64,000 bases of DNA, taken from assembly GCA_019914995.1 (NCBI GenBank), contig CM034126.1:67001-131000 (forward strand), read 5' to 3'. Positions 10,651 through 63,249 of this stretch are shown piece after piece. Positions within the stretch are counted from its first letter, which is position 1. Every line of letters starts with the position of its first letter. The notes under the pieces are model-generated. The model was not told the DNA's origin, made no database searches, and worked only from the letters and a program-made list of their open reading frames with translations. A program made the position numbers and the translations under genes. This DNA is from Acanthochlamys bracteata. Lineage: Eukaryota > Streptophyta > Magnoliopsida > Pandanales > Velloziaceae.

Positions 10651-11324
10651 AAGCAATCGATCTTGGTAGAACAACAACGACGACAACAAAAAAATTTGAA
10701 AGTTTCCACAGAGAGATAGATCTATGATATTTCTTCTTCTGTTTGATTGTGATGATTTGAAAATAATTGTTGCAGCGATGAGCTAACGAGCAGCTGGAAA
10801 TTGGAAACCATTTCCATATATTATTCTAGCTGTTAGTTAGTAGCCCAAAAAAAATTTTGCTCTCTTTTTTTAAGAATATAAGAAAAAAAAAGTGTTGACT
10901 TTGATCGCTTGATGGATTGATGCTTTGCTTCAGTTTCGTCTTCGTTTGGCAGGCGATGGAAGAATTTTGCATTTGAGGACCTTCCATTCTATATATAAAA
11001 AAAATGATAGTTAACGTCTTAACAGAATCAGGCCGTAAAGCAGTATGTTTGTAGATCAGGTCCTTCAAAAAGTCTTATTTGTTTATAAAGTTCATTACCA
11101 TACTTTTTATTTAGTGAATAAAATCCGGTCCCTTTGAGCCAGTGCCGGCGAGTCTGACCGAAAAATCGGTTACCGGGCTCGAAATCTGGACCGAGTCTTA
11201 AGGTAGACCACCTGTGCAGCCAACCCGGTGAGACCCGAGTTGATACGAGCGATTTTCCGGGTCAACTCGCCGACCCGAGTGAGCGGGTCGACCCAGTTGA
11301 ACGGCACCCTCACAGAGTCACAGA
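10651..11324. other. Upstream region of XEG113 and spacer
   Basis: The first 100-150 bases are probably the XEG113 leader and core promoter, read on the minus strand. The rest holds A/T runs and no supported gene. A minus-strand frame at 11170-11463 continues past the PDX1 remnant but shows no PDX1 similarity. Confidence 0.4.
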
Positions 11325-11801
11325 TGCAGATCATGGTGGCAAAGGGCCTCTCCGAGATCGCCGCAGCCACAGACGAAGGGGATTCTGAACTTGTGGTTGT
11401 TGATGTGGTTGCTGCCGTCGGTTGGTAGGAGGACCTCGCTCTCGTCGACGTAATTAACGCCAATGGCCTCCAAGATGTGGGCCTCGACGAAGTGGCCGAT
11501 GCAGGCCTTGGGCATGACCGGGATGGTAACGGCGTGCTTGATCTCGCGGATGAGGCCTGGGTCGATCATGCGGGCTACCACGCCGCCGGCACGAATGTCA
11601 GCGCGGACGCGCTCGAGAGCCATGACGGCGAAGGCGTCAGCCTCCTCGGCAATCCGAGCTTGCTCGGCGTTGACAATATCCATGCAGCATCTAGGCGAGG
11701 CCGACCTTAACGGAGAAGATGGATGCAGTGGAGGAAGAAATCTTGAAATCAGAAACGGCAGCACGGTTGCCGTAAACAGTCACAAAGGCGCTGCCAGCCA
11801 T
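11325..11801 (-). pseudogene. Truncated intronless PDX1 (pyridoxal 5'-phosphate synthase) copy
   Basis: Functional PDX1 makes vitamin B6 with the PDX2 glutaminase. The copy starts [12 protein letters not shown] and shows FSVKVGLA, then an in-frame TAG where the family has Gln (GLAQMLRGG), then a small deletion that changes frame. The second frame carries [54 protein letters not shown] and [20 protein letters not shown], all clear PDX1 blocks including the KARIGH-type lysine. Similarity fades just after LGEAL, near a segment resembling AAMIRT, so the C-terminal half of the barrel, about 150 residues with the phosphate-binding loop, is absent. Known plant PDX1 genes often lack introns, so this could be a decayed ordinary duplicate or a retrocopy; no poly(A) tract was recognised at the truncated end. 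Confidence 0.85.
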
Positions 11802-17915: not shown

Positions 17916-20101
17916 ATGGCCCCTTTCTTCCTCTTCCTCTTCACACTGTTGTCTACCCTTTGCTTCTTCTGCTTCATCCTCAGAAGTAGAAGAACAAGAC
18001 GAACAAGAACGCCGCAGTCCGGCGAATACGTTGTAACTACTAACAATAAAAAACTGCCTCTCCCGCCGGGCACGATGGGCTGGCCTTATGTCGGTGAAAC
18101 CTTCCATCTCTATTCCAGTAATCCCAACACCTTCTTCGCTCAAAAACAGAAGAGGTTTTAAACGGCGGATCCGTCGATCAAATTAACGACCGAGATTAAT
18201 GGATGTTCTATTTACTGATGCAGTGGCAACTGATTCATTTTGCAGGTACGGCCCGATATTCAAGACGCACATTCTTGGTTGCCCCTGTATTATGGTCTCC
18301 AGCCCCGAAGCGTCGAGGTTCGTTCTCGTCACAAGAGCTCGCTTGTTCAAGCCCACTTTTCCTGCCAGCAAAGAGCGTATGCTTGGCCCGCAGGCTATCT
18401 TCTTCCAGCAGGGCGAATACCACGCCCGTCTCCGGCGATTAGTTCTACGCGCTTTCATGCCCGATGCCATCCGCCGATCGGTCCCTTATATCGAGGCCGT
18501 CGCTCTACGCGCTCTCCGGTCATGGGACGGAACGCTCATCAACACCTTCCAAGAAATGAAGACGGTCAGTATCCTTGCTCCTTCTTCCCTTCCGCTGTTT
18601 CCAAAAAAAAAAAAAAGAGAAAAAAAAACCGGAGTTTTCTGTTCGCTCGTGTTTCTCATGTAGTTGTCGACTGATTTGGTTTCTTTTGTTTCCTTTTAAC
18701 AGTACGCGTTCAATGTGGCGCTGCTATCAATCTTTGGGAAGGATGAGCTTTCTTACATAGATGAGCTGAAGCGGTGCTACTACACACTCGAAAAGGGATA
18801 CAATTCTATGCCCGTCAACCTCCCTGGAACTCTGTTCCACAAGGCAATGAAAGCTCGCCGTCAACTCGCCGGAATAGTAGCTAAGATCCTTGCGGCGAGG
18901 CGTAAGAGGAACGACGATCAGGCAACTGATGACTTGCTTGGCTCATTCATGGAGAGCAAAGAAGCACTCACCGATGAGCAGATCACTGATAACATCATAG
19001 GAGTTATGTTCGCTGCGCGCGACACGACAGCAAGTGTGCTCACTTGGATTGTTAAGTACCTCGGCGACAACCCAAGCGTGCTACAAGCAGTCACTGTATG
19101 TCCTTTGATCTTTGCTGCATACATATAGGTGTAGTCAAATAGTATCTCATGATCTGAGATTGATTGATAGATTCGTCGGTGTTGGATTTTAAATGTGGTG
19201 TGCAGGAAGAACAAGAGGAGATCATGAGGAGCAAAGAGGATATGATGGGAGACGGCGAGGAGAAATCATTGACATGGGCAGATACAAAGAAGATGCCGAT
19301 GACGTCGAGGGTGATCCAGGAGACTATGCGTGTTGCTTCCATCTTATCTTTTACATTCAGAGAAGCAGTAGAAGATGTGGAGTACGAAGGTAATTAATTC
19401 ATTCATCAACCAATCACTCCATTAACAAATTAATCATTCAATGAATGGTGTTGTTCTTATATGGTATTTTGCCGTACGTGTGTGTGTGCGTGTGTATGTG
19501 ATGGCAGGGTACCTTATACCAAAAGGATGGAAAGTATTGCCTCTATTCAGGAACATTCACCACAGCCCTGACAACTTCGCGGACCCTGAAAAGTTTGATC
19601 CCTCTAGATTTGAGGTGACTAACACAAGCAGGATGCATATTAGTCATACGTATAACAGATCATGTACTTTGATTAATTGAGAGTTGTGAAGCTGTGCTAT
19701 GAGTTGATGTTGCAGGTATCTCCGAAGCCGAACACCTTCATGCCCTTTGGGAATGGGACCCATTCATGCCCTGGAAATGAGCTGGCTAAGATGGAGATGT
19801 TGGTCCTTCTCCATCACCTAACCACTAAATACAGGTATTCTTGTTATATTCTATTTCTATGAACTTGTTTTTCAGATGAATCAATCAGTCAGCCAGTCCG
19901 TCTGAGATTGATTGATTCATCCATCCATTCATCTAAGCAATGAGATAGTGAGTTTTATGACCGTTTTTTATTCTCAGGTGGTGTACGAGTGCATCGGATA
20001 ACGGGATTCAGTTCGGGCCGTTCGTCCTTCCGATGAATGGACTCCCGCTAAAATTCTCTAGCAAATCGCATTCTGATACGATGAGAGAAATTTTAACTTG
20101 A
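17916..20101 (+). CDS. CYP707A: Abscisic acid 8'-hydroxylase, cytochrome P450 CYP707A
   Basis: ER-bound monooxygenase that hydroxylates ABA at C-8', the main step of ABA breakdown. Exons: 17916-18154, 18246-18564, 18703-19095, 19206-19389, 19508-19614, 19716-19834, 19978-20101. All junctions are GT-AG and in phase, giving 494 residues, slightly long for the family because of a Thr/Arg/Asn-rich stretch after the anchor. Residues 1-22 form the membrane anchor. LPLPPGTMGWPYVGETFHLY is the CYP707A proline-rich hinge. AARDTT (290-295) is the I-helix oxygen-binding motif, ETMR (356-359) the ExxR motif, and PFGNGTHSCPG the haem loop with Cys432. PTFPASKERMLG and KGYNSMPVNLPGTLFHKAMK are almost diagnostic of CYP707A. 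An ATG 13 codons upstream is less likely because it adds residues before the anchor. No defect was seen, so it should be active. Confidence 0.95.
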
Positions 20102-26630: not shown

Positions 26631-29600
26631 CTAGCAGGCAGGCAGCATGTTCTTCTTCAGCTTCCTTTTCAGGTCATGTAAGACGGACTGGGCGGTACAG
26701 TATGCAATGGCTTGCACCGTCACCATCGGGTTAACTCCGACCGCTGTCGGCAACACGCTCGCATCAGCAACATACAACCCTTCCACCTCCCAGCTCTCCC
26801 CTCTTCCGTCCACCGCTCCTTCCCCTTCCTCCGACGCCATCCTGCAGCTCCCCATCTGATGCGCTGACCACAAGGGCATCCCCTCTGCAGGCGCTCTCAT
26901 CGACGATCGCCTAACGAAATTCTCCCACTCCCTCAGACTCATCCTCCCCACCTCCGCTCTCTCTCCGTCACAGTTCGTCGTCCCCACCTCTTCTGCCCCT
27001 GCCGCTGCCATGAGTCTCAGCATCCTCTCTATCCCCTTCCGCAACACCGCCTCATCTCTTTTATCGAGTTTGTACGACACTGAACCTGAGGAGTTCACTG
27101 AGCCAGAGCCACGGTCACGAGACAAAGCAAACAAATGTGCCGTCCTATCAAACCTCGCCATTCGCGCCTTGAAGTCGGTACCGGAGACCCATGGCGTGAC
27201 AACGGAGAAGAGTCCCGGGTGCAGCGACGGAGTCTGGATAATGCCTCCGTAGTTACTACTATCCAAGGGTTCAACCTTAGACATGGCTGTGATGATTCCG
27301 CCCTCGTAGCTTTTGCAATCCGTGAGTGCTTTGGCGGCTTTGTCCGGGAAGTATCCCCAGGCCATGACCACTGGGTGTAGGTGCAGGTTCTTCCCTATGT
27401 GTTTGTTCTTAAGCCCGCTCCTTCGGAGTAGTACCGGTGTGCCAAGAGCCCCGCATGCTACGATGGTTGCCTTCCCCTCAATCGTGCACACCTGTAGGTC
27501 CTCACCGAACTCCAACAGAACGCCAGACGCTACTCTATGGCGCCGCCCGGACTTCTGACCGTTTCGGCTGCTATGGAGCACGCGGACTGCTTTTGCATTC
27601 GGGATGATGACACCGTTGCCGGAGCGTGCCATGTCAACTAGCCACGTCTCTGAAACTGCTGCCTTTTTTCCATCTCGGCAGCCGAAGCAACACCACCCAC
27701 AGTCATGATCCTGCGGAGCATTTCTCGGGACATCCTTGACAGGGTAGCCCATCTGTTCGCACCCTTTTCGCAAACCTGCATTGCCCAGACTCTCCTTCCG
27801 TGGGCAGGGTGAGCAGTGCTGCATGCCCATCCTCGTGATCACAGCTTCCAGAGCCTCTTCATAAGCGTCGCTGCCGAAGAGTTCCAGCCCGAGCTCTTCC
27901 CTCCACTCTTTCGTCACGTCTTCCGGCGTTGTCAATGCTGCCGCCCAGTTGATAGCAGAGCCGCCACCCACTGTGGAGCCGGAGAGTATCCCCAATCCCA
28001 TGTCCTCGGTGCATACTAGACCACCGCCCTCATACATTTGATCAAGGGTAGGGCCTTCAAGGAGGTTCAGTCCGGCACGGGCAAAGTAGGCGCCTTTCTC
28101 AATGACCACGACCTTGTAGCCTGCCATGGCGAGAACTCCAGCGACGACGCCTCCACCGGAGCCAGATCCAACAATAACAGCGTCACAGTGGATGGTAGGG
28201 ACGGGTTTGTCATGGCCTGGTATGCGGCGAGCAGAGAGGGGAATTCCGACAACAGCCAGGGCTGCAGATAGGGCAGAGCGAGGGACATCGACATGGACCA
28301 GGCAGCGGCGGAGTGGACCCATAAGGTGGTCGTCATCATCGTCGGTAGACTGCGGTTGTCGCTGGAGTTGAGGGTCAGGGCCGCAGTAGCCGAGGGCCTT
28401 CCAAGTAGGGTTCTCATTATTCTCGTCCAACTGAAGCGAAACCAGCAAAGTGAGAATCAAACTTGGCAAAAAACTGATCTATATTTGATCTAGCTAGGGA
28501 GCGTACGTTACGAAGTACGTCGACGGGTTACCTGGGTGAAGTAGAAGAGAGCAACGAGATACTTGATGGCGCGGTAAAGCATCCTAAGGTAGACGATGGA
28601 GCTCTTGGACCATGATAACAGGATCTCCTCGCGACGACGGAGTTCTATTTCGGAGAACTTGTGGAAGTAAGGGGAACGGTTCGAGAGGCTCTCGACGCCG
28701 CAGAGGAGGAAGGTGCCGTACCAAGTGGATAGCAGCCACAATGCCGTACGAAGTAACCACAACATAGCGTGCTGCAACCTTCCGGACATGTAGCTCCCAA
28801 CCTGCGTGCGGTAGACATTGCAAATTCAGGAACTAGTAGTATACGCTCGTGCATCATGCAGAGGGTTTTATTTATTTTGAAGCGACCGCTTAACCAATTC
28901 TTTTCATATTCTTTTTACATAATAACAAATTTGGTTTTCTTTGTTGTCACGGGAGCTATCACAAACTTTGACAACAAAATCTTTTTTTTTTTTTGAATAT
29001 AGTTATATTGATAAATAGTGAAACGTACACAACAACACACCGCATTCGTTTTCGTTTCTTGGAAAGGTTTAAAAGTACTTCAACTAAATAATTATTATAA
29101 AACTTTTCAAAAAATTAATTTTTGTTAATATAAATAATCTTATAACGAAGATTATTTGAACTTTTCTAATACTTAAAAAATTATAAAATTATAAAAAATT
29201 TATTAGAAAATTAGAATGAAGTTTTGACAAAAAATAATAAATACCTCAAAAAATACACTCCAAACTATCGAGATATATGTTTAACAGTAAACACACTACG
29301 CATGCATATAAGCCGGTAAAAATCTCGATGATAAAAAAAAAAAATTGATACAAGCTAGCTGATTGAGAAAGAACAAGAAGACGTCGATATAAAGGGATGT
29401 AAGAGTGATTCTGAAATTGAAATAGGGGTGACAGTGGGGTGTGCTTACTACTTGTGGGATTCCAAGCATGGATGCAGAGGTAAGGAACAAGGTGCCGAGC
29501 GATTGTGCGTCTCTTTCAATAATGCCTGCCGGAAGAACCTCAATGGACGGAAGCAAGGTATCGCTCAATGCGGTGATCGACTCCATCTCCTTCGCCGACA

Positions 29601-39438: not shown

Positions 39439-40014
39439 ATGACCTCCCTTACTAATTATTCGAAACCAACAACACTAGCAGCAGCGATCTGAACGTCGAT
39501 CCTGTTGCTTCTGTTATTGCTAGACACCTGCGAAGGTACTTGCACTCCCAGTGGATCGCTTAAAGGGAAACAAGTACCCAGAAGCAAATGCGACCCTGCC
39601 ACTGCTACCTGCTGCGAAGCCGGCCACTTCTATGAGACCTACACCTGCTCCCCGCCGGTGACAAAAATGACCTCGGCCATTCTCACCCTCAACGATTTCG
39701 AGAGAAACGGTGACGGCGGTGGGCCGTCAGAGTGCGACAACCGTTACCATTCCAACAAAACCTCTGTTGTGGCGTTATCTACAGGGTGGTTCGCTGGCAA
39801 GAAACGGTACCACAACTTCATTACCATCCACCACGGTGGAAAGAGTGTCAGGGCCATGGTCGTCGACGAGTGTGATTCTACTATGGGCTGCGACGATGAG
39901 CACGGGTATCAGGTACCGTGCAGGAACAATGTTGTAGATGGGTCCGCGGCAGTGTGGGACGCCCTTGGGCTCAACCAGGAGTTGGGTGAGGTCAGAGTCT
40001 TCTGGAGCGAATAA
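39439..40014 (+). pseudogene. Kiwellin / ripening-related protein with a stop in its signal peptide
   Basis: Kiwellins are secreted Cys-rich proteins with a double-psi beta-barrel, abundant in fruit and in defence; some bind fungal chorismate mutase. One exon. From the ATG at 39439 the frame reads MTSLTNYSKPTTLAAAI, then TGA at 39490-39492, then continues in frame with a hydrophobic stretch (SILLLLLLLDTCEG) that is the rest of a signal peptide. The mature domain is complete: CTPSGSLKGK, CCEAGHFYETYTCSPPVTK, LTLNDFERNGDGGGPSECDN, STGWFAGKKRYHN, VVDECDSTMGCDDEHGYQVP and CRNNVVDGSAAVWDALGLN, ending TAA. All usual Cys-rich blocks are present. The stop makes this a very young pseudogene, a sequence error, or a gene using another start. 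No other ATG lies between the stop and the mature domain. Confidence 0.75.
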
Positions 40015-53163: not shown

Positions 53164-55009
53164 ATGGAGCCACCACTGAAATTCTTGGAGACAGCGGAGT
53201 GTGCTGCGGCGAGATCAGGGAAGCCATGGCTCGGGAAGTGGTACAGCTATCTTGCGGATCTTTACCGGCGACAGCTCTGGGACGAGCTTGCATTCGCCCT
53301 CCATCAATTCAGTACCACTTTCTTTTACAACGAGGTTAAAATTTTGCTTCTTTCATCAATTCTTTATTTTACTCTGATCGATTTGATCAACGAAGGTTTC
53401 TTTTTTATCACTGTCCTGAAGGTCTGTGATTAAAAAGGAAGGTCTTGTTGTTTTTTCTTGTTAAAGATTCATTGAAGGAAAAGATTATGACTTATTATGA
53501 AAGAACCTTCGATAATAATTAAGAAACAATGGAACAATGATTTTACAAAAAAGAAGACTATTCATTTTCTTTCATGCTTTTAGACAAAGAGGTATATATG
53601 TCCTGGATTTGTTTTTTTGGTTTTGATTATTGTGTAAGAAAGGGTTTCAACACATTCAACCTTTCTAATGTGACATAGCTGCCATACCTCTTCTGCTTTT
53701 GAGGAAAATAGTATTGGAGCAAACTGGAGTTATATGGTTCTTCTGAAAAAATGAAAGTGATTCAGAGGAGAAAGTTTTCTCTTTGCACTTGAGCTTCGGT
53801 AGCAGAAGGTGCTTTGGGAACTTATGTTCTGGTTAAACTAGGGTCATTACATTTAACAATCTCAAGAATGTTTAACTCTGAAGAATGGAATTCTAGAATA
53901 CTCCCATATTTTGGAGTTGAAATGTTAACAGATATTAACAACTGAATTTGTGTCTATAGATTCTATAAGGAATTAAGCATTTTGTTCATGCTTCTGATAT
54001 GACAATTAATCTTATTTCTGCAATAGGCATTGCTTTGCACTGTTTATTCATGAATCTGCTTTCAATGTGACAGCAAGGAGCCATCATACTGTTATATCAC
54101 AACTTTATAGATCAATGTGCAACGAAAATTAATGTCAAAATGCTTGCTTATCTTGCAAGGAATATATCATTCCTATTTTCAGAAGCAGAAGCCATTACGT
54201 TTCTTGAATTGGTGGCTGACAAGATATGTTGCACAGGAGAGAGGCACATTTGGGGTGCTCTTTCTCTCATCAAAGTGACTGAGGCTGAGCATCTTTTTTA
54301 TAAAGGGAAAGCAAAGGAATGTAAGGAGCTTTTAGATGATTGTGAACTAGGTGCCTTGGCTGATGATGATTCTTCTCTTCAAGCTGCCTTTTACTGGGTT
54401 TCATCTGTGTACTATAACTATTGCAGAGATTTTACCCAATTCTATAAGCACATGCTTCTCTACTTGGATTACGTCGAAGAGGAATATGTTCCAACGCATT
54501 ACAGACTGGTAAGTTTGCAATTAATTTTGGAGGTTATTGTGTGAAAATCCATTACCGACTGGTAAGTGATGTATATATTACAAAGTTTGCATTACAAGGC
54601 CACAACAGCAGAAACTTATTTTCTTTCAAAGGCACTTTGATAGGGTCTTCAGGGAATCAATCAATTTAACATAAGAACATCTTAACTTTTGGTGAGGATA
54701 CATGTGCATTTTGAAAACTGAGCAAGGAAGTCTCATGCTAGTGGTCGCTAATGGTGTATGGTGAGATGAGGTGTGGGAGTCCTCTAAAAGAGGAACACCA
54801 ATAATTGTATGGATTTGTGTTTAGATTGTATAGTGATGAAGTGGAAAGTTTTATCCTGAAATAGGAAGTTCTAGTTTTAATGAGAAGCCTTATCCAAGGA
54901 GAATGAATGTTCAATGCTAAAGTGCGCTGCATTTGACTACCGAAAATGACAATGTTTTTGCGTATCTGGATTTTACTTTTTTGTTATATTTATTTATTTA
55001 TGTATTTAC

Positions 55010-57372: not shown

Positions 57373-60271
57373 TCAGTCGGCCTCTGGCTCATCAATGTCA
57401 CTGTCCAAGTACATTTCTACTGCTTTGCTGCTAGCCATCTGTTCTTCATCCTGTTGCCTCCTTTCATCATCTCTTCTCCTAGCAGCCATCCCAGCTATCG
57501 CTTCCTCAAGTCTAGTGCTCACGACCTCCCAGGAAACCAGGTTTTCCAAAAATTTAGACACATAATCTGCGCGGCGGTTCTGCATAAATGTTTAAAAGGA
57601 AGCTGAGGTTAAATTACTCCAGGTACAAGATGGTAGCGAATAATCCCACAAAAATGTGAACTCTGGAATCTCACCGCATAGTCAAGGTAATATGCATGCT
57701 GCAAAGCCAGATCAACAATATGTTCAGAAATATGTTTCCAACATATCGAACATAAGAATTCAACTAATTACAACCTATTAGAGACATACCTCCCAGACAT
57801 CAATGGCAAGAATTGGCTGCCACAATAGAAACAAAAAAAATGACTTAGATGTTATTGCTGTAAAGCAAAGAATCTTTTGGATGAACTTGCTTTAACACTC
57901 ACAAGCTATAATAAGAAAAAAACTGTCTCCACAAGTAAAAGACTAGGGCCTTCAACCTCAAACAAGAATAAGAGAACTGTAGTACAGAAACTAAACCTTT
58001 GCATAGACTAAGGCAGGAGAAATTGTCGAAAGTAAGAGGAAAAGGTAAAGGAACAATGGCAACAGCAGGTGGGCAGAAGAGTGATCAGAGCATGTTGGAG
58101 TTTAGGAGCGCAGCAGCAGGTGGCTGGTTAGTGGAAGAAGCATGCAGGGTGAAGATGGAATTTCGTTGAGCCAGGCTTCCACGTTAGCAGATTCTGAGTT
58201 ATGAACATCATGCAGTGCACCCCCTTTGGGCATGCACACCTTCTGCCAACCTTCTTGTTACAGCTGGGAAGTTGTTTCGAAAGGCAGGACATGCTTGATA
58301 CAACCTTCAGTGGAGATAAGCTGCTGGGAGAAGTTCCTTGCACTCCACCTACCTTCGCCATTGTATAAAGTGGAGAGTTGTTCCGAGCTATGATGGAAAA
58401 TTACAACATGATTTGCACAGTATGGATCACTACATTGCAGAGTTATGTGCTAGTGGATTTATTTCATTATGAACCTTTACAAAATAAAACAGGCAAGACC
58501 CATGACTTCTATGATTGCTTTAGAAGGCAACTTGATATGAATTGGGATAAGAGGTAAACAAGAATTACCTAGTCAACACTCACCGAATAATCCCAAACAA
58601 GTGGGTTTACTGCATTTGGAGTCTTTGTTATGACAAGCTTATTATCTTTCTCTGATGGGTAGGGATTTACAGCATTTCCTATATCCAGCTTGTTCGCTTT
58701 ATCTAAATAAGGAAGGAATACATAAACATCAAATAAGCCAAATTCGATGCTCACATTCAAGCAGAGAAGCTATTGCCTAAATTTCAATCACAGAAGCTAT
58801 TGTCATGATGAGGAAACTACTTACATGCGAGCCAAACCCACCCAGACCCAAATTGATTCAAAGCAGTTCCGTGCAGCTTCATCATCATTGTATCAAATGA
58901 CCCAAAATCTCTCTCTATTAGATCTAAGAGAACCCCAGTAGGACGCCCTCCACCACCTGGCCTCATGGATTGCCAGAAGAACTCATTGTTCCATATCTGT
59001 CATATTAGATGACACCTTACCAGTAAGTGGACAGATGAATGTTGATGTTTCTAAGATTCACTTCGATAAAGTGAAACATCAGCAATTCAAACTATGTAAA
59101 TGTAAATGCTAATATTGTAAAATAGCACAAACGTTGGGAGATATACTGCACTGTTCAAAAAAGATGATATTGATGTAGGATGGGGGATCAAGTTCTAACT
59201 CTAAGAGCCATGTGATGGTGTACTTTACTTCAGCCCTGATTTTTAGCGCAATATTGGTTAAGAGTTTCAGCTTGACCACATTTTTGAATTGAAGCAATCT
59301 ACAAGTGGAGGTGGCAAAAAAAGTATTAGTTATACCTGAGCGGCATGGTCGAAGGTAGGGAGCCAGTTTCCCTTGTTATAGGAAGCCAGGATCATGTCCT
59401 CCAATTCCATCCCATCAAGTTCAGTGCCATCTATTATTGCATTGAGGGCCTCAACATGAGCCTTGTGGTGCCTTCCCCAGTGATGTTCAAGTGTCTCCCG
59501 GCTTATATAAGGTTCTAAAGCATCCTGACAAACCCAAAATCCAACATTATGGAACACCAATATCACAACGTATATAGGAGCACAAATCCATCTACTCAAA
59601 AACCAAGCATACAACATCATGACAGACCATACCAGAATCTTAAACAAGGAAAAAAAATATAGTAATAAAAGAAGCTTCACAATAAAAAGATCCAAGTGCC
59701 CTAGATTATGGAAACCCAAGAACAAACCTAAAACAGAGCTGATATCACCAGTCAAGAAACAGGCAACGGACGAGCAGCATGGTTTAAGAGAACATTATAA
59801 TATAGAGCAAAAACCAAGTACTTAACAAAAAATAAAGAAAAACACCATCCAAATTCAAGCACCACAGATACGTTCAGCACCAAAAAAAAAGCCCTTTCCC
59901 CCGAGGTCATGAAATTATCAAAATACCAAGAAGGATAACATGGACAGAAGTAAAAAAGTCTAATGTGGGTGAGAGAGAGTGATACCAATTCGTATGGAGG
60001 TGGCTTGAGCTCCAGTTGGGCGGTGATTGATCTGGAGCTAGCTTTCCTTCTTGAAGGGCAAGCATTACTTCCTCTCTGAAACGCAATTCACAATAAGCAC
60101 GCTGGTGTTGGTAATAGCAAAACAGAGACGCGCGCGCACACGCACACGCACGCACGCACGCAACAGAGGGAAGTAGAAAGGGACCTTGAGTGGAGACGGA
60201 AATGGTTGAAGGAGAGCTGTGGTGGTGTTGGTGATGATGGGAAAAGAGGAGAGAGAAATTCCAAGAACCAT
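57373..60271 (-). CDS. FSD2: Chloroplast Fe-superoxide dismutase, FSD2 type, with a changed metal ligand
   Basis: FSD2 works with FSD3 in chloroplast nucleoids, protecting the plastid-encoded RNA polymerase from superoxide. Exons: 60271-60185, 60075-59986, 59524-59336, 58996-58825, 58702-58584, 57816-57790, 57698-57675, 57579-57373, all in phase, giving 304 residues. Residues 1-45 are a Ser/Thr/Arg-rich transit peptide. [20 protein letters not shown] starts the SOD domain. The C-terminal acidic tail ends [13 protein letters not shown], the FSD2 hallmark. Metal ligands: His74 (EHHWGRHH), Asp225 and His229 (DVWEHAYY) are present. At the fourth position the family has AWNHEFFW; here it reads IWNNEFFW, so the His ligand is Asn126 (codon AAT, 58987-58985). 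FDH replaces FNN six residues earlier. The fold blocks ([33 protein letters not shown]) are intact. It may have low or no activity. Confidence 0.93.
60128..60161. repeat. Alternating purine-pyrimidine repeat
   Basis: CGCGCGCACACGCACACGCA-type run in intron 1 of the FSD2-like gene. Such runs are length-variable and can adopt Z-DNA in vitro. Confidence 0.8.
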
Positions 60272-60772: not shown

Positions 60773-63249
60773 TTAGAGAGTAGACAAAATCAAAGGTTTT
60801 CCACTTGCCGTGGCTTTGCTTGTGATCCTCTCCATCTCTACAACAAACCTTTCCATCGCCTTCTCTGGCAACTTCACCGGCACCACAATCCTATCCTCTC
60901 CTTCTCTGTTCTTAAACCTTACGTAGTAACTCAGCGCCTTCGCCGGAAGACGATCCGTCCCGCAAGTCCCCGGCGCGCCGAATATAGCTTTCCCCCACCC
61001 GAAATCCACTTCATGGAACTTTGCCCGAGTCACGTCCGCCGCAATGTACGTGTTGTACTCCCCCACCATTGCCACCGCCGGCCTTCTTCGGGCATCTAAA
61101 ACACCTGAGAGCGACTGCATGTACTCTCGAGTCACCGGAAATTTAGCTTTAAGGATAAGCTCCACCGCGTAGCTCAACTCCTCGTCGCAGAGTTTTCCGG
61201 CGCTCGTGTCCATGGCTGTGAACACGAAAGCGTTACCATAGAAGCCTGCAGGGATCCATGAGTTGAGCTTCGTGTAGGCCGTAAGAACGTTGAGGATTCG
61301 AACACTTTCTTTCGGATGAAATTCTAGAGCGATCGTTCTGCTACGCCACACTGCGGCCGCCAGTATATCGAATGTAGAGCATCGCCGGAGGATTTCAGGT
61401 GGTAGTTTGCTACGTAGCGCCGAGATCTCTCTATTGCCGAAGAAAAAAGATCGCTGAACGGCTCTAGTGCTTTCATTGTTGGCGTTGTTGTTCGGCGTTA
61501 GTGATGAATCTTGACCAGTTATGTACTCCGGGTGCATGTAGGTGATGCACGGGGGCTGGTGTTGGGAAACGAGAAGGTGTCGAGCCCACACAGGCGGTAC
61601 GGAAGGGAAAGCGGCGCCACGAGCAATCTCGCCGACGGCGTTAAGGAACTGTACGAGACCAGGACCGTCGCAGAGGGTGTGATTGAACCGGACGGCGAAG
61701 ATAAAGCCTCCGCAGGTTAGTCTGGTAACCTGCGCATATGCAATACCATAGAGCCCAGTTAACCAAATCGATTCGGTTATTAGTTTTTTCTATAAAATAA
61801 TTGTCTATCGTGTGTGAAATGATCCGATGTTAATTAATTTATTTCTATTAACGATCACTTTGCAATACTTTTCATTCGTTTCTTGTCGTTATCCATGGAG
61901 AACTATATATACAGTAGCCAATCCGGTCCCAGCTATTAAAGACTTAAGTGGTACTCTTAAAAATATTTCCAAAACAAGTGTAGCTTTTGATGTAGATAGG
62001 AGATTGCTTGATTCCAAAAGATTTTAATTTTAGGGGTCTATTCTGTTCACGGAAATAATAAGATAAATCATTATCAATGTGAACGGGTTCATCGACTCTT
62101 TTCTTAATCCCTTCTATTTCTGTCGCTCTCTATATATATAAAAATTAACACATAATGAGAAAACCAAATCTTCAATCTCTCTTTATAACCAACTGTGCAA
62201 GGTGGAGTATGATCAGTTGAGCTGACCTTGACTGTCGTAGAAGGGAGACAAATACAACAAATAATGAATCACAATCTTCCAATATAAGAAGATCGAGAAA
62301 CATATGTACAGCTATATATAGCTGAGCTGCTACTTCACATTATTTTTCATCAGTTGGCATGGGCAGCAAACATTTGACAATATGAGATGCATGCATGTGA
62401 TAGTCTTCCTTTCCTTACTGCACTCGATCTGCTTGTTGATTTTATCAGTACCACCTTTCTCTCCACTCAACCAATCATGTCATTATTAATTGTTATTATA
62501 ATAGTTTAATAGTTATAGTCTTATTGATATAGAATCTTACTATTACAAAAAATTAATTCTAATGAATGCTGATCGAGGACATATTCTTATCATCACATGA
62601 TTGTTTGATAAACTGAGATTATGTACTGATGATTCATTTTGAACAACTAATTAAAGTAATCATGATCAGACTCACCAGACTAATTCCTAACTCCCAACCA
62701 TTGATTGACTAATTAAAGCAAAATCTATCCAGAAATTAAATAAATAAAGAAAACATATATATCGTCATATATATACACTACCTGGAAGAGAAGCAAAGGG
62801 GAGCCGGTGATCCCGCCTGAGCCGGGAACCTCGAAGGCGAGCTCATCGACACAAGGAACAGGAGGCATTGGAACGTCCCTGAACTGCTCGATACGAACAT
62901 CAGCTTCTGCCTCGATGAACACGACACCTTCACCAGTGCAATCAACAGCTAGCTTCCTTCCAGGACCGAGTGCAACAAGCCTGCCTGCGAGCGGGTAGTA
63001 ATAAACCAACGCCTTCGCTATCGCGTCCGCAATAACTTTGGCCGGATCTTTTGTAACTATGTTGTTATTGGTCGAGTTAGCAGGGTAGAACATGATTATG
63101 GGTAGATGGAATAGGAGAGTTTCTTGGCTGTCCACGTCCGATAACAGCTTCAACTCTCGTGGCGTGTTAGCTGATGGACGGACAAGGAAAGGAGATTGTC
63201 GACGAACGGTGAAGACCGGAGGTGACGAAGAAGAAGAGAAGGAAGCCAT
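60773..63249 (-). CDS. BAHD acyltransferase, benzyl alcohol O-benzoyltransferase-like
   Basis: Cytosolic acyl-CoA-dependent transferase of the BAHD family. The closest remembered relatives are benzyl alcohol O-benzoyltransferases and other alcohol acyltransferases that make volatile esters from benzoyl- or acetyl-CoA. Exons 63249-62782 and 61729-60773 join in phase at the usual single BAHD intron, giving 474 residues. The N-terminus reads FTVRRQSPFLVRPSANTPRE and LLSDVDSQETLLFHLPIIMF, typical of the BEBT clade. LVYYYPLAGRL precedes the first domain core. The catalytic HxxxD is NHTLCDG (His173, Asp177), at the start of exon 2. The structural motif VDFGWGKAIFGAP is intact. A Gly/Asn-rich loop (DSSLTPNNNANNEST) is slightly unusual. 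The exact acyl donor and acceptor cannot be told from sequence. It should be active. Confidence 0.92.

Follow-up and report, generated by a model that had tools for sequence, protein, structure and literature searches.

In the lineage of Acanthochlamys bracteata, FSD2/PAP9, a subunit of the plastid-encoded RNA polymerase, has probably become a pseudo-SOD that is kept as a structural subunit, a reading to which we assign a probability of about 0.68. The protein has lost one of the four metal ligands that define an iron superoxide dismutase (Fe-SOD), together with the gateway Tyr of the active site, and retains the residues of the dimer interface and the acidic tail of its family.

Gene structure and identity

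The window, by which we mean the whole stretch of 64,000 nucleotides analysed here, carries on its minus strand an FSD2/PAP9-type Fe-SOD gene whose spliced model joins eight exons in phase into a protein of 304 residues (Table 1). All seven introns have a GT donor and an AG acceptor, and no stop, frameshift or splice-site damage was found over the eight exons of this model, which bears out the initial annotation in its description of eight exons in phase and of an intact gene.

Among solved chains, those closest to the protein are of the FSD2/PAP9 type (7bjk, 386 bits; 8w9z_L, 376 bits; 8qma_L, 374 bits; 8xzv_L, 351 bits), the first being named SOD [Fe] 2, chloroplastic, and the second and third PAP9, whereas five FSD3/PAP4-type chains score 221-232 bits. 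Ungapped identity to Arabidopsis PAP9 (AtPAP9) is 68.6% over 220 residues. The acidic C-terminal extension, with its Tyr, is also present, its last 14 residues aligning with the AtPAP9 tail EVYLDSDID, and a C-terminal acidic sequence is described as a signature of the PAP9 family (PMC8278866). Because the bit scores favour the FSD2/PAP9 chains and the acidic tail is present, we take the gene to be FSD2/PAP9 and not FSD3, as the initial annotation had also read it; it would as such be a putative subunit of the plastid polymerase.

Table 1. Coordinates of the FSD2/PAP9 gene, its exons and altered codons, and of other features in the window.
Feature	Position	Strand	Remarks
FSD2/PAP9-type Fe-SOD gene	57373-60271	-	Eight exons, 304 aa; spliced model
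FSD2 exon 1	60185-60271	-	Start codon, N-terminal region; spliced model
FSD2 exon 2	59986-60075	-	Spliced model
FSD2 exon 3	59336-59524	-	Ligand His74, gate His78, gateway Tyr replaced by His82, Asp118-His119, gate Gln122
FSD2 codon 82, CAT (His)	59456-59458	-	Fe-SODs: gateway Tyr (AtPAP9 Tyr39)
FSD2 codons 118-119, GAC CAT (Asp-His)	59345-59350	-	Fe-SODs: Asn-Asn
FSD2 exon 4	58825-58996	-	Asn126, dimer Ser173
FSD2 codon 126, AAT (Asn)	58985-58987	-	Fe-SODs: metal-ligand His (AtPAP9 His83)
FSD2 exon 5	58584-58702	-	Spliced model
FSD2 exon 6	57790-57816	-	Ligand Asp225, gate Trp227, dimer Glu228, all intact
FSD2 exon 7	57675-57698	-	Ligand His229, dimer Tyr231, both intact
FSD2 exon 8	57373-57579	-	C-terminal helix and acidic PAP9 tail
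Transferase (BAHD-type)	60773-63249	-	Two open stretches, Pfam match at consecutive profile parts
SOR/SNZ family (PDX1-like pyridoxal synthase)	11318-11779	-	Open stretch, profile positions 17-131 of 207 only
GMC oxidoreductase	26631-28478	-	Pfam match
Kiwellin	39493-40014	+	Pfam match
Proteasome subunit PSD13, N-terminal part	54071-54544	+	Pfam match
P450 fragment	18187-18663	+	Pfam match

As regards the other features of the window, the two Transferase stretches match consecutive parts of the profile and are therefore read as one gene with two exons, which lies upstream of FSD2 and shares its strand, and the SOR/SNZ stretch could represent a divergent or truncated copy.

Residues of the active site and of the dimer interface

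At codon 126 the plus strand reads ATT, that is, AAT on the minus strand, so that Asn stands within the motif IWNNEFFW; in the ungapped alignment to 7bjk this residue falls on AtPAP9 His83, and the replacement of a ligand His by Asn, which the initial annotation had singled out, is thereby confirmed. According to the structural account of AtPAP9 (PMC8278866), the metal is held by His31, His83, Asp182 and His186, the site is closed by His35, Tyr39, Gln79 and Trp184, and the dimer contacts involve Ser130 and Glu185, the contact through Tyr188 being made in the cowpea enzyme and not observed in PAP9. The corresponding columns in the window protein are residues 74, 126, 225 and 229 for the ligands, 78, 82, 122 and 227 for the closing set, and 173, 228 and 231 for the dimer. 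Nine of these eleven residues are unchanged, the exceptions being His83, replaced by Asn126, and Tyr39, replaced by His82.

A catalytic Fe-SOD (SodFM2) was defined by the four ligands His, His, Asp, His and by the closing set His, Tyr, Gln, Trp, and the window protein departs from both: three of its four ligands are kept (residues 74, 225 and 229, as had been claimed from the start) with Asn126 as the second, and His78, Gln122 and Trp227 are retained around a Tyr turned into His82. The dimer residues Ser173, Glu228 and Tyr231 are all in place, so that the protein shows the combination by which a pseudo-SOD was defined, namely catalytic residues lost and dimer residues retained. A conserved Asn-Asn pair has also become Asp118-His119 (Asn118Asp, Asn119His); these two changes, Tyr82His and the state of FSD3 described below extend the initial annotation. 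Alternative splicing that would give His at position 126 was considered and rejected, as no such AG acceptor occurs from -60 to +60 bases of the start of exon 4.

Conservation of the altered positions

The plant set comprised five other Fe-SODs, four of the FSD2/PAP9 type and one from cowpea, with sequences drawn from the alignments of solved chains; Arabidopsis and cowpea apart, the species are those from which we take these chains to come. The cowpea Fe-SOD is called cytosolic (PMC8278866). The bacterial set consisted of the best 80 of 399 confirmed loci, i.e., the nearest fifth of all those recovered, which were collected with two peptide patterns, one of them spanning the ligand position and permitting either His or Asn there.

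Within these sets (the bacterial counts all referring to the best 80 of 399), the ligand column is His in 5/5 other plants and 80/80 bacterial Fe-SODs and the gateway column is Tyr in 5/5 and 80/80, with the two Asn columns being Asn in 78/80 and 77/80 and the Gln79 column Gln in 79/80 of the bacterial proteins. An analysis of 3,011 genomes describes the four metal residues as universally conserved (PMC10172142), and the metal-binding residues are given as conserved in the poplar proteins, the truncated FSD2.2 being left out (PMC3579828). Our literature search found no published report of a plant FSD2 without a metal ligand in the portions of text that it returned.

Of the 36 columns that are at least 95% conserved in the best 80 of 399 bacterial proteins, the window protein keeps 31 and departs at five, while each of the five other plant proteins departs at one, in every case at L12P, a change common to the window protein as well. 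Its four additional departures are Y39H, N75D, N76H and H83N in AtPAP9 numbering. Lowering the threshold to 90% (44 columns, same 80 of 399) leaves seven departures in the window protein against one or two in the others. With four plants as the comparison, 4/35 versus 0/140 departures correspond to p = 0.0014, a value to be taken only as a guide since the plants are non-independent; nor are the four departures significantly concentrated in the eight ligand and gate residues (2/4, p = 0.22 over 35 columns). As judged from the aligned residues, this pattern is not that of a gene falling apart.

Rate of change along the lineage

In the six-protein comparison, in which 128 of 220 positions are identical in the five others, 21 changes are found in the window protein only, and the private changes of the others number 0-8 each. 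A four-species comparison that leaves out Arabidopsis and cowpea, so that the same species serve FSD2 and FSD3, assigns to the A. bracteata lineage 28 private changes in FSD2 versus 8-11 in the three others, and 15 in FSD3 versus 6-11. PAP11, another polymerase subunit, has 34 private changes in the lineage versus 7-25 in the others. An acceleration specific to FSD2 is accordingly rejected, the excess in PAP11 being similar and that in FSD2 not significantly greater (Fisher p = 0.39 against PAP11 and 0.22 against FSD3). Since PAP11 shows this similar excess, we do not claim a relaxation specific to FSD2: the branch of this lineage is simply long, and our argument is based on the identity of the altered residues, not on their number.

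The FSD3 partner

The searches of the assembly, whose counts are lower bounds, found a single FSD3, with its core exons at 7886509-7888081 of contig C12. It retains the gateway Tyr and the full set of four ligands, and carries Glu in the Gln79 column (GAG, minus strand, 7887893-7887895, at the end of core exon 1) and Asp in the Asn76 column. The Asp is common to two other plant FSD3 chains, presumably spinach-type and tobacco-type, and the Glu is absent from all five FSD3 chains aligned. In the Fe-SOD of E. coli, the exchange of this Gln for Glu shifts the iron potential upward by several hundred millivolts; a published test of the exchange in an Fe-SOD was not found in our literature search. 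The Gln79-type residue is the N-terminal water-coordinating residue that sets the SodFM2 subfamily apart (PMC10172142). An alternative donor nine bases on for the exon ending in Glu was rejected by eye, as it would bring in an insert of three residues and break an intron position common to FSD2.

Over the near-universal columns, the two that are absent from fragments being left out, this FSD3 has five departures, against two, four and three in FSD3 chains from other plants; among FSD3/PAP4-type chains, the gate His is replaced by Gln in 8xzv_M and the conserved Asn75 by Ser in 8w9z_G. Judging from such variation of the site across plant FSD3 chains, the catalytic constraint on FSD3 seems weaker in a number of plants, and A. 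bracteata is the only one among the genomes compared in which the FSD2 metal ligand is lost as well. FSD3/PAP4 is a related sequence and the presumed heterodimer partner of the window protein, from which it differs in being without the acidic tail and, in A. bracteata, in having the complete set of ligands together with the Glu.

Other superoxide dismutases, photosynthesis and polymerase genes

The assembly was searched with the family model (at least 5 matches) and with the protein as query (at least 11 matches), which gave two MnSOD loci besides a single FSD2 and a single FSD3; those MnSOD exons that were read show normal motifs around His and Asp. Neither a second FSD2 copy with the normal His nor an FSD1 was found in these searches, whose counts are lower bounds. 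The absence of FSD1 looks ordinary; Arabidopsis FSD1 has been suggested to be a lineage-specific duplicate, and no poplar FSD1 is listed in the same survey (PMC3579828). CuZn-SOD genes are present, with 8 exon matches in the genome, and include a candidate on contig 2 near 13.67 Mb (exons joined by eye), whose solved relatives rank as 6dtk (four stretches), 4rvp, 3hog (named chloroplastic) and 1srd.

The chlorophyll a/b-binding family is represented in the genome by a full set of genes, with 41 matches, and on this ground a loss of photosynthesis was rejected as the cause of the FSD2 change. With Lhca3, the chain taken to come from Arabidopsis and most of those taken to come from pea score a little higher than maize and clearly higher than barley, in itself a weak hint of a eudicot. 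PAP11 is present, its frame being open throughout the part compared. No plastid genome emerged from the search with the RNA polymerase family, the best matches of which contain stops or occur as scattered pieces. Paired CuZn-SOD, MnSOD and chlorophyll-binding genes lie on contigs C10/C15, C8/C11, C16/C18 and C4/C6, which suggests a past genome duplication, though one FSD2 locus and one FSD3 locus were found.

Discussion

The residues that have changed make the loss of normal SOD activity in FSD2 very likely. Without His at position 126, the site would be expected to bind iron poorly or not at all and to be unable to alternate between Fe3+ and Fe2+, and loss of the gateway Tyr would make any leftover turnover slow. 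In human MnSOD, the Y34H mutant has a k1 of 0.07 versus 1.5 and a k2 of <0.02 versus 1.1 nM-1 s-1 (PMC9208312); a large drop in turnover is therefore to be expected from His82 alone, provided that the Fe enzyme responds in the same way.

What the protein would be retained for is pairing with FSD3/PAP4 and docking on the polymerase. We infer this structural role because the association of FSD2 with FSD3, and mutants, have been published: the heterodimer and double-mutant data of Arabidopsis are cited in PMC8278866, and rice FeSOD3 is reported to bind FeSOD2 (PMC13140286). The initial annotation had offered a structural partnership with FSD3 as one conjecture, and with the dimer residues and tail kept and the association on record, it now gives the best fit, though as a role that we still only infer. 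Moreover, Glu185 of one AtPAP9 subunit touches a metal His of the other (PMC8278866), and since the equivalent Glu228 is kept, an inactive FSD2 could still reach the metal-site His of FSD3 across the dimer and complete the FSD3 site. Bulk removal of plastid superoxide would then fall to the chloroplast-type CuZn-SOD, for which the genome holds a candidate, and perhaps to FSD3.

An alternative is that the metal site has been rewired, with Asn126, His82 or His119 taking part in a changed site for Zn, Fe or another metal and serving some redox or structural-metal role. Asn is able to ligate a metal in principle, and residual metal binding in FSD2 is possible; three ligands are left, two new His residues have appeared in the same part of the protein, and zinc, a metal without redox activity, was present in recombinant AtPAP9 (PMC8278866), which makes a structural metal conceivable. 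That zinc, however, was bound with all four ligands present, the new residues of the window protein stand at near-invariant Tyr and Asn columns of Fe-SODs, and its sequence offers no replacement ligand. The earlier suggestion that Asn126 or the His of FDHAAQ might support altered metal chemistry finds no support in these data, this His lying seven residues before the lost ligand and the gateway Tyr being lost as well, and we regard a rewired site as unlikely.

It might also be supposed that FSD2 is being lost and that we have caught the first of many neutral changes. The raised number of private changes in FSD2 would agree with such an early pseudogene, but the excess in PAP11 is similar, the reading frame and splice sites are intact over all eight exons, the 31 retained near-universal columns (best 80 of 399 bacteria) are accompanied by the tail and the dimer residues, and this is the sole FSD2 found in the two assembly searches with their lower-bound counts; we hold incipient decay to be quite improbable. 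A base or assembly error at codon 126 of an otherwise normal Fe-SOD would require little, AAT and CAT being one base apart. It is nonetheless very improbable that a lone error explains the data, because there are four changes at conserved sites over two exons, with Tyr82His and Asn118Asp/Asn119His lying separately in exon 3 and Asn126 in exon 4 of a gene that is otherwise clean.

The reading of FSD2 as a structural pseudo-SOD may be carried one step further, in that both SOD subunits of the polymerase may have left normal superoxide chemistry and the pair may be kept purely as a scaffold. We advance this only tentatively; FSD2 is without a ligand and the gateway Tyr, and FSD3, with its ligands complete, has exchanged Gln for Glu. 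Yeast mitoribosomal mS42 and mS43 are both SOD-fold proteins that are not known to be catalytic. They pair as a heterodimer built permanently into the gene-expression apparatus of an organelle (PMC8998825, PMC9892005), as is presumed for FSD2 and FSD3, but in a ribosome instead of a polymerase and in another lineage. The nearest described counterpart of the window protein is AtPAP9 itself (7bjk; PMC8278866), which shares with it the dimer residues, the acidic tail with its Tyr and a presumed place as one of the two polymerase Fe-SODs. AtPAP9 differs in having four ligands, the gateway Tyr and Asn-Asn, the corresponding changes in the window protein being to Asn, His and Asp-His.

In plants, the chloroplast RNA polymerase includes two Fe-SODs as permanent components, and it is, to our knowledge, unsettled whether it depends on their catalytic activity or only on their shape. 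A photosynthetic plant with an FSD2 devoid of a metal ligand and an FSD3 with an altered second-sphere residue would answer this question by natural mutation, and, if both SOD subunits have indeed left superoxide chemistry, A. bracteata would represent a natural separation-of-function experiment.
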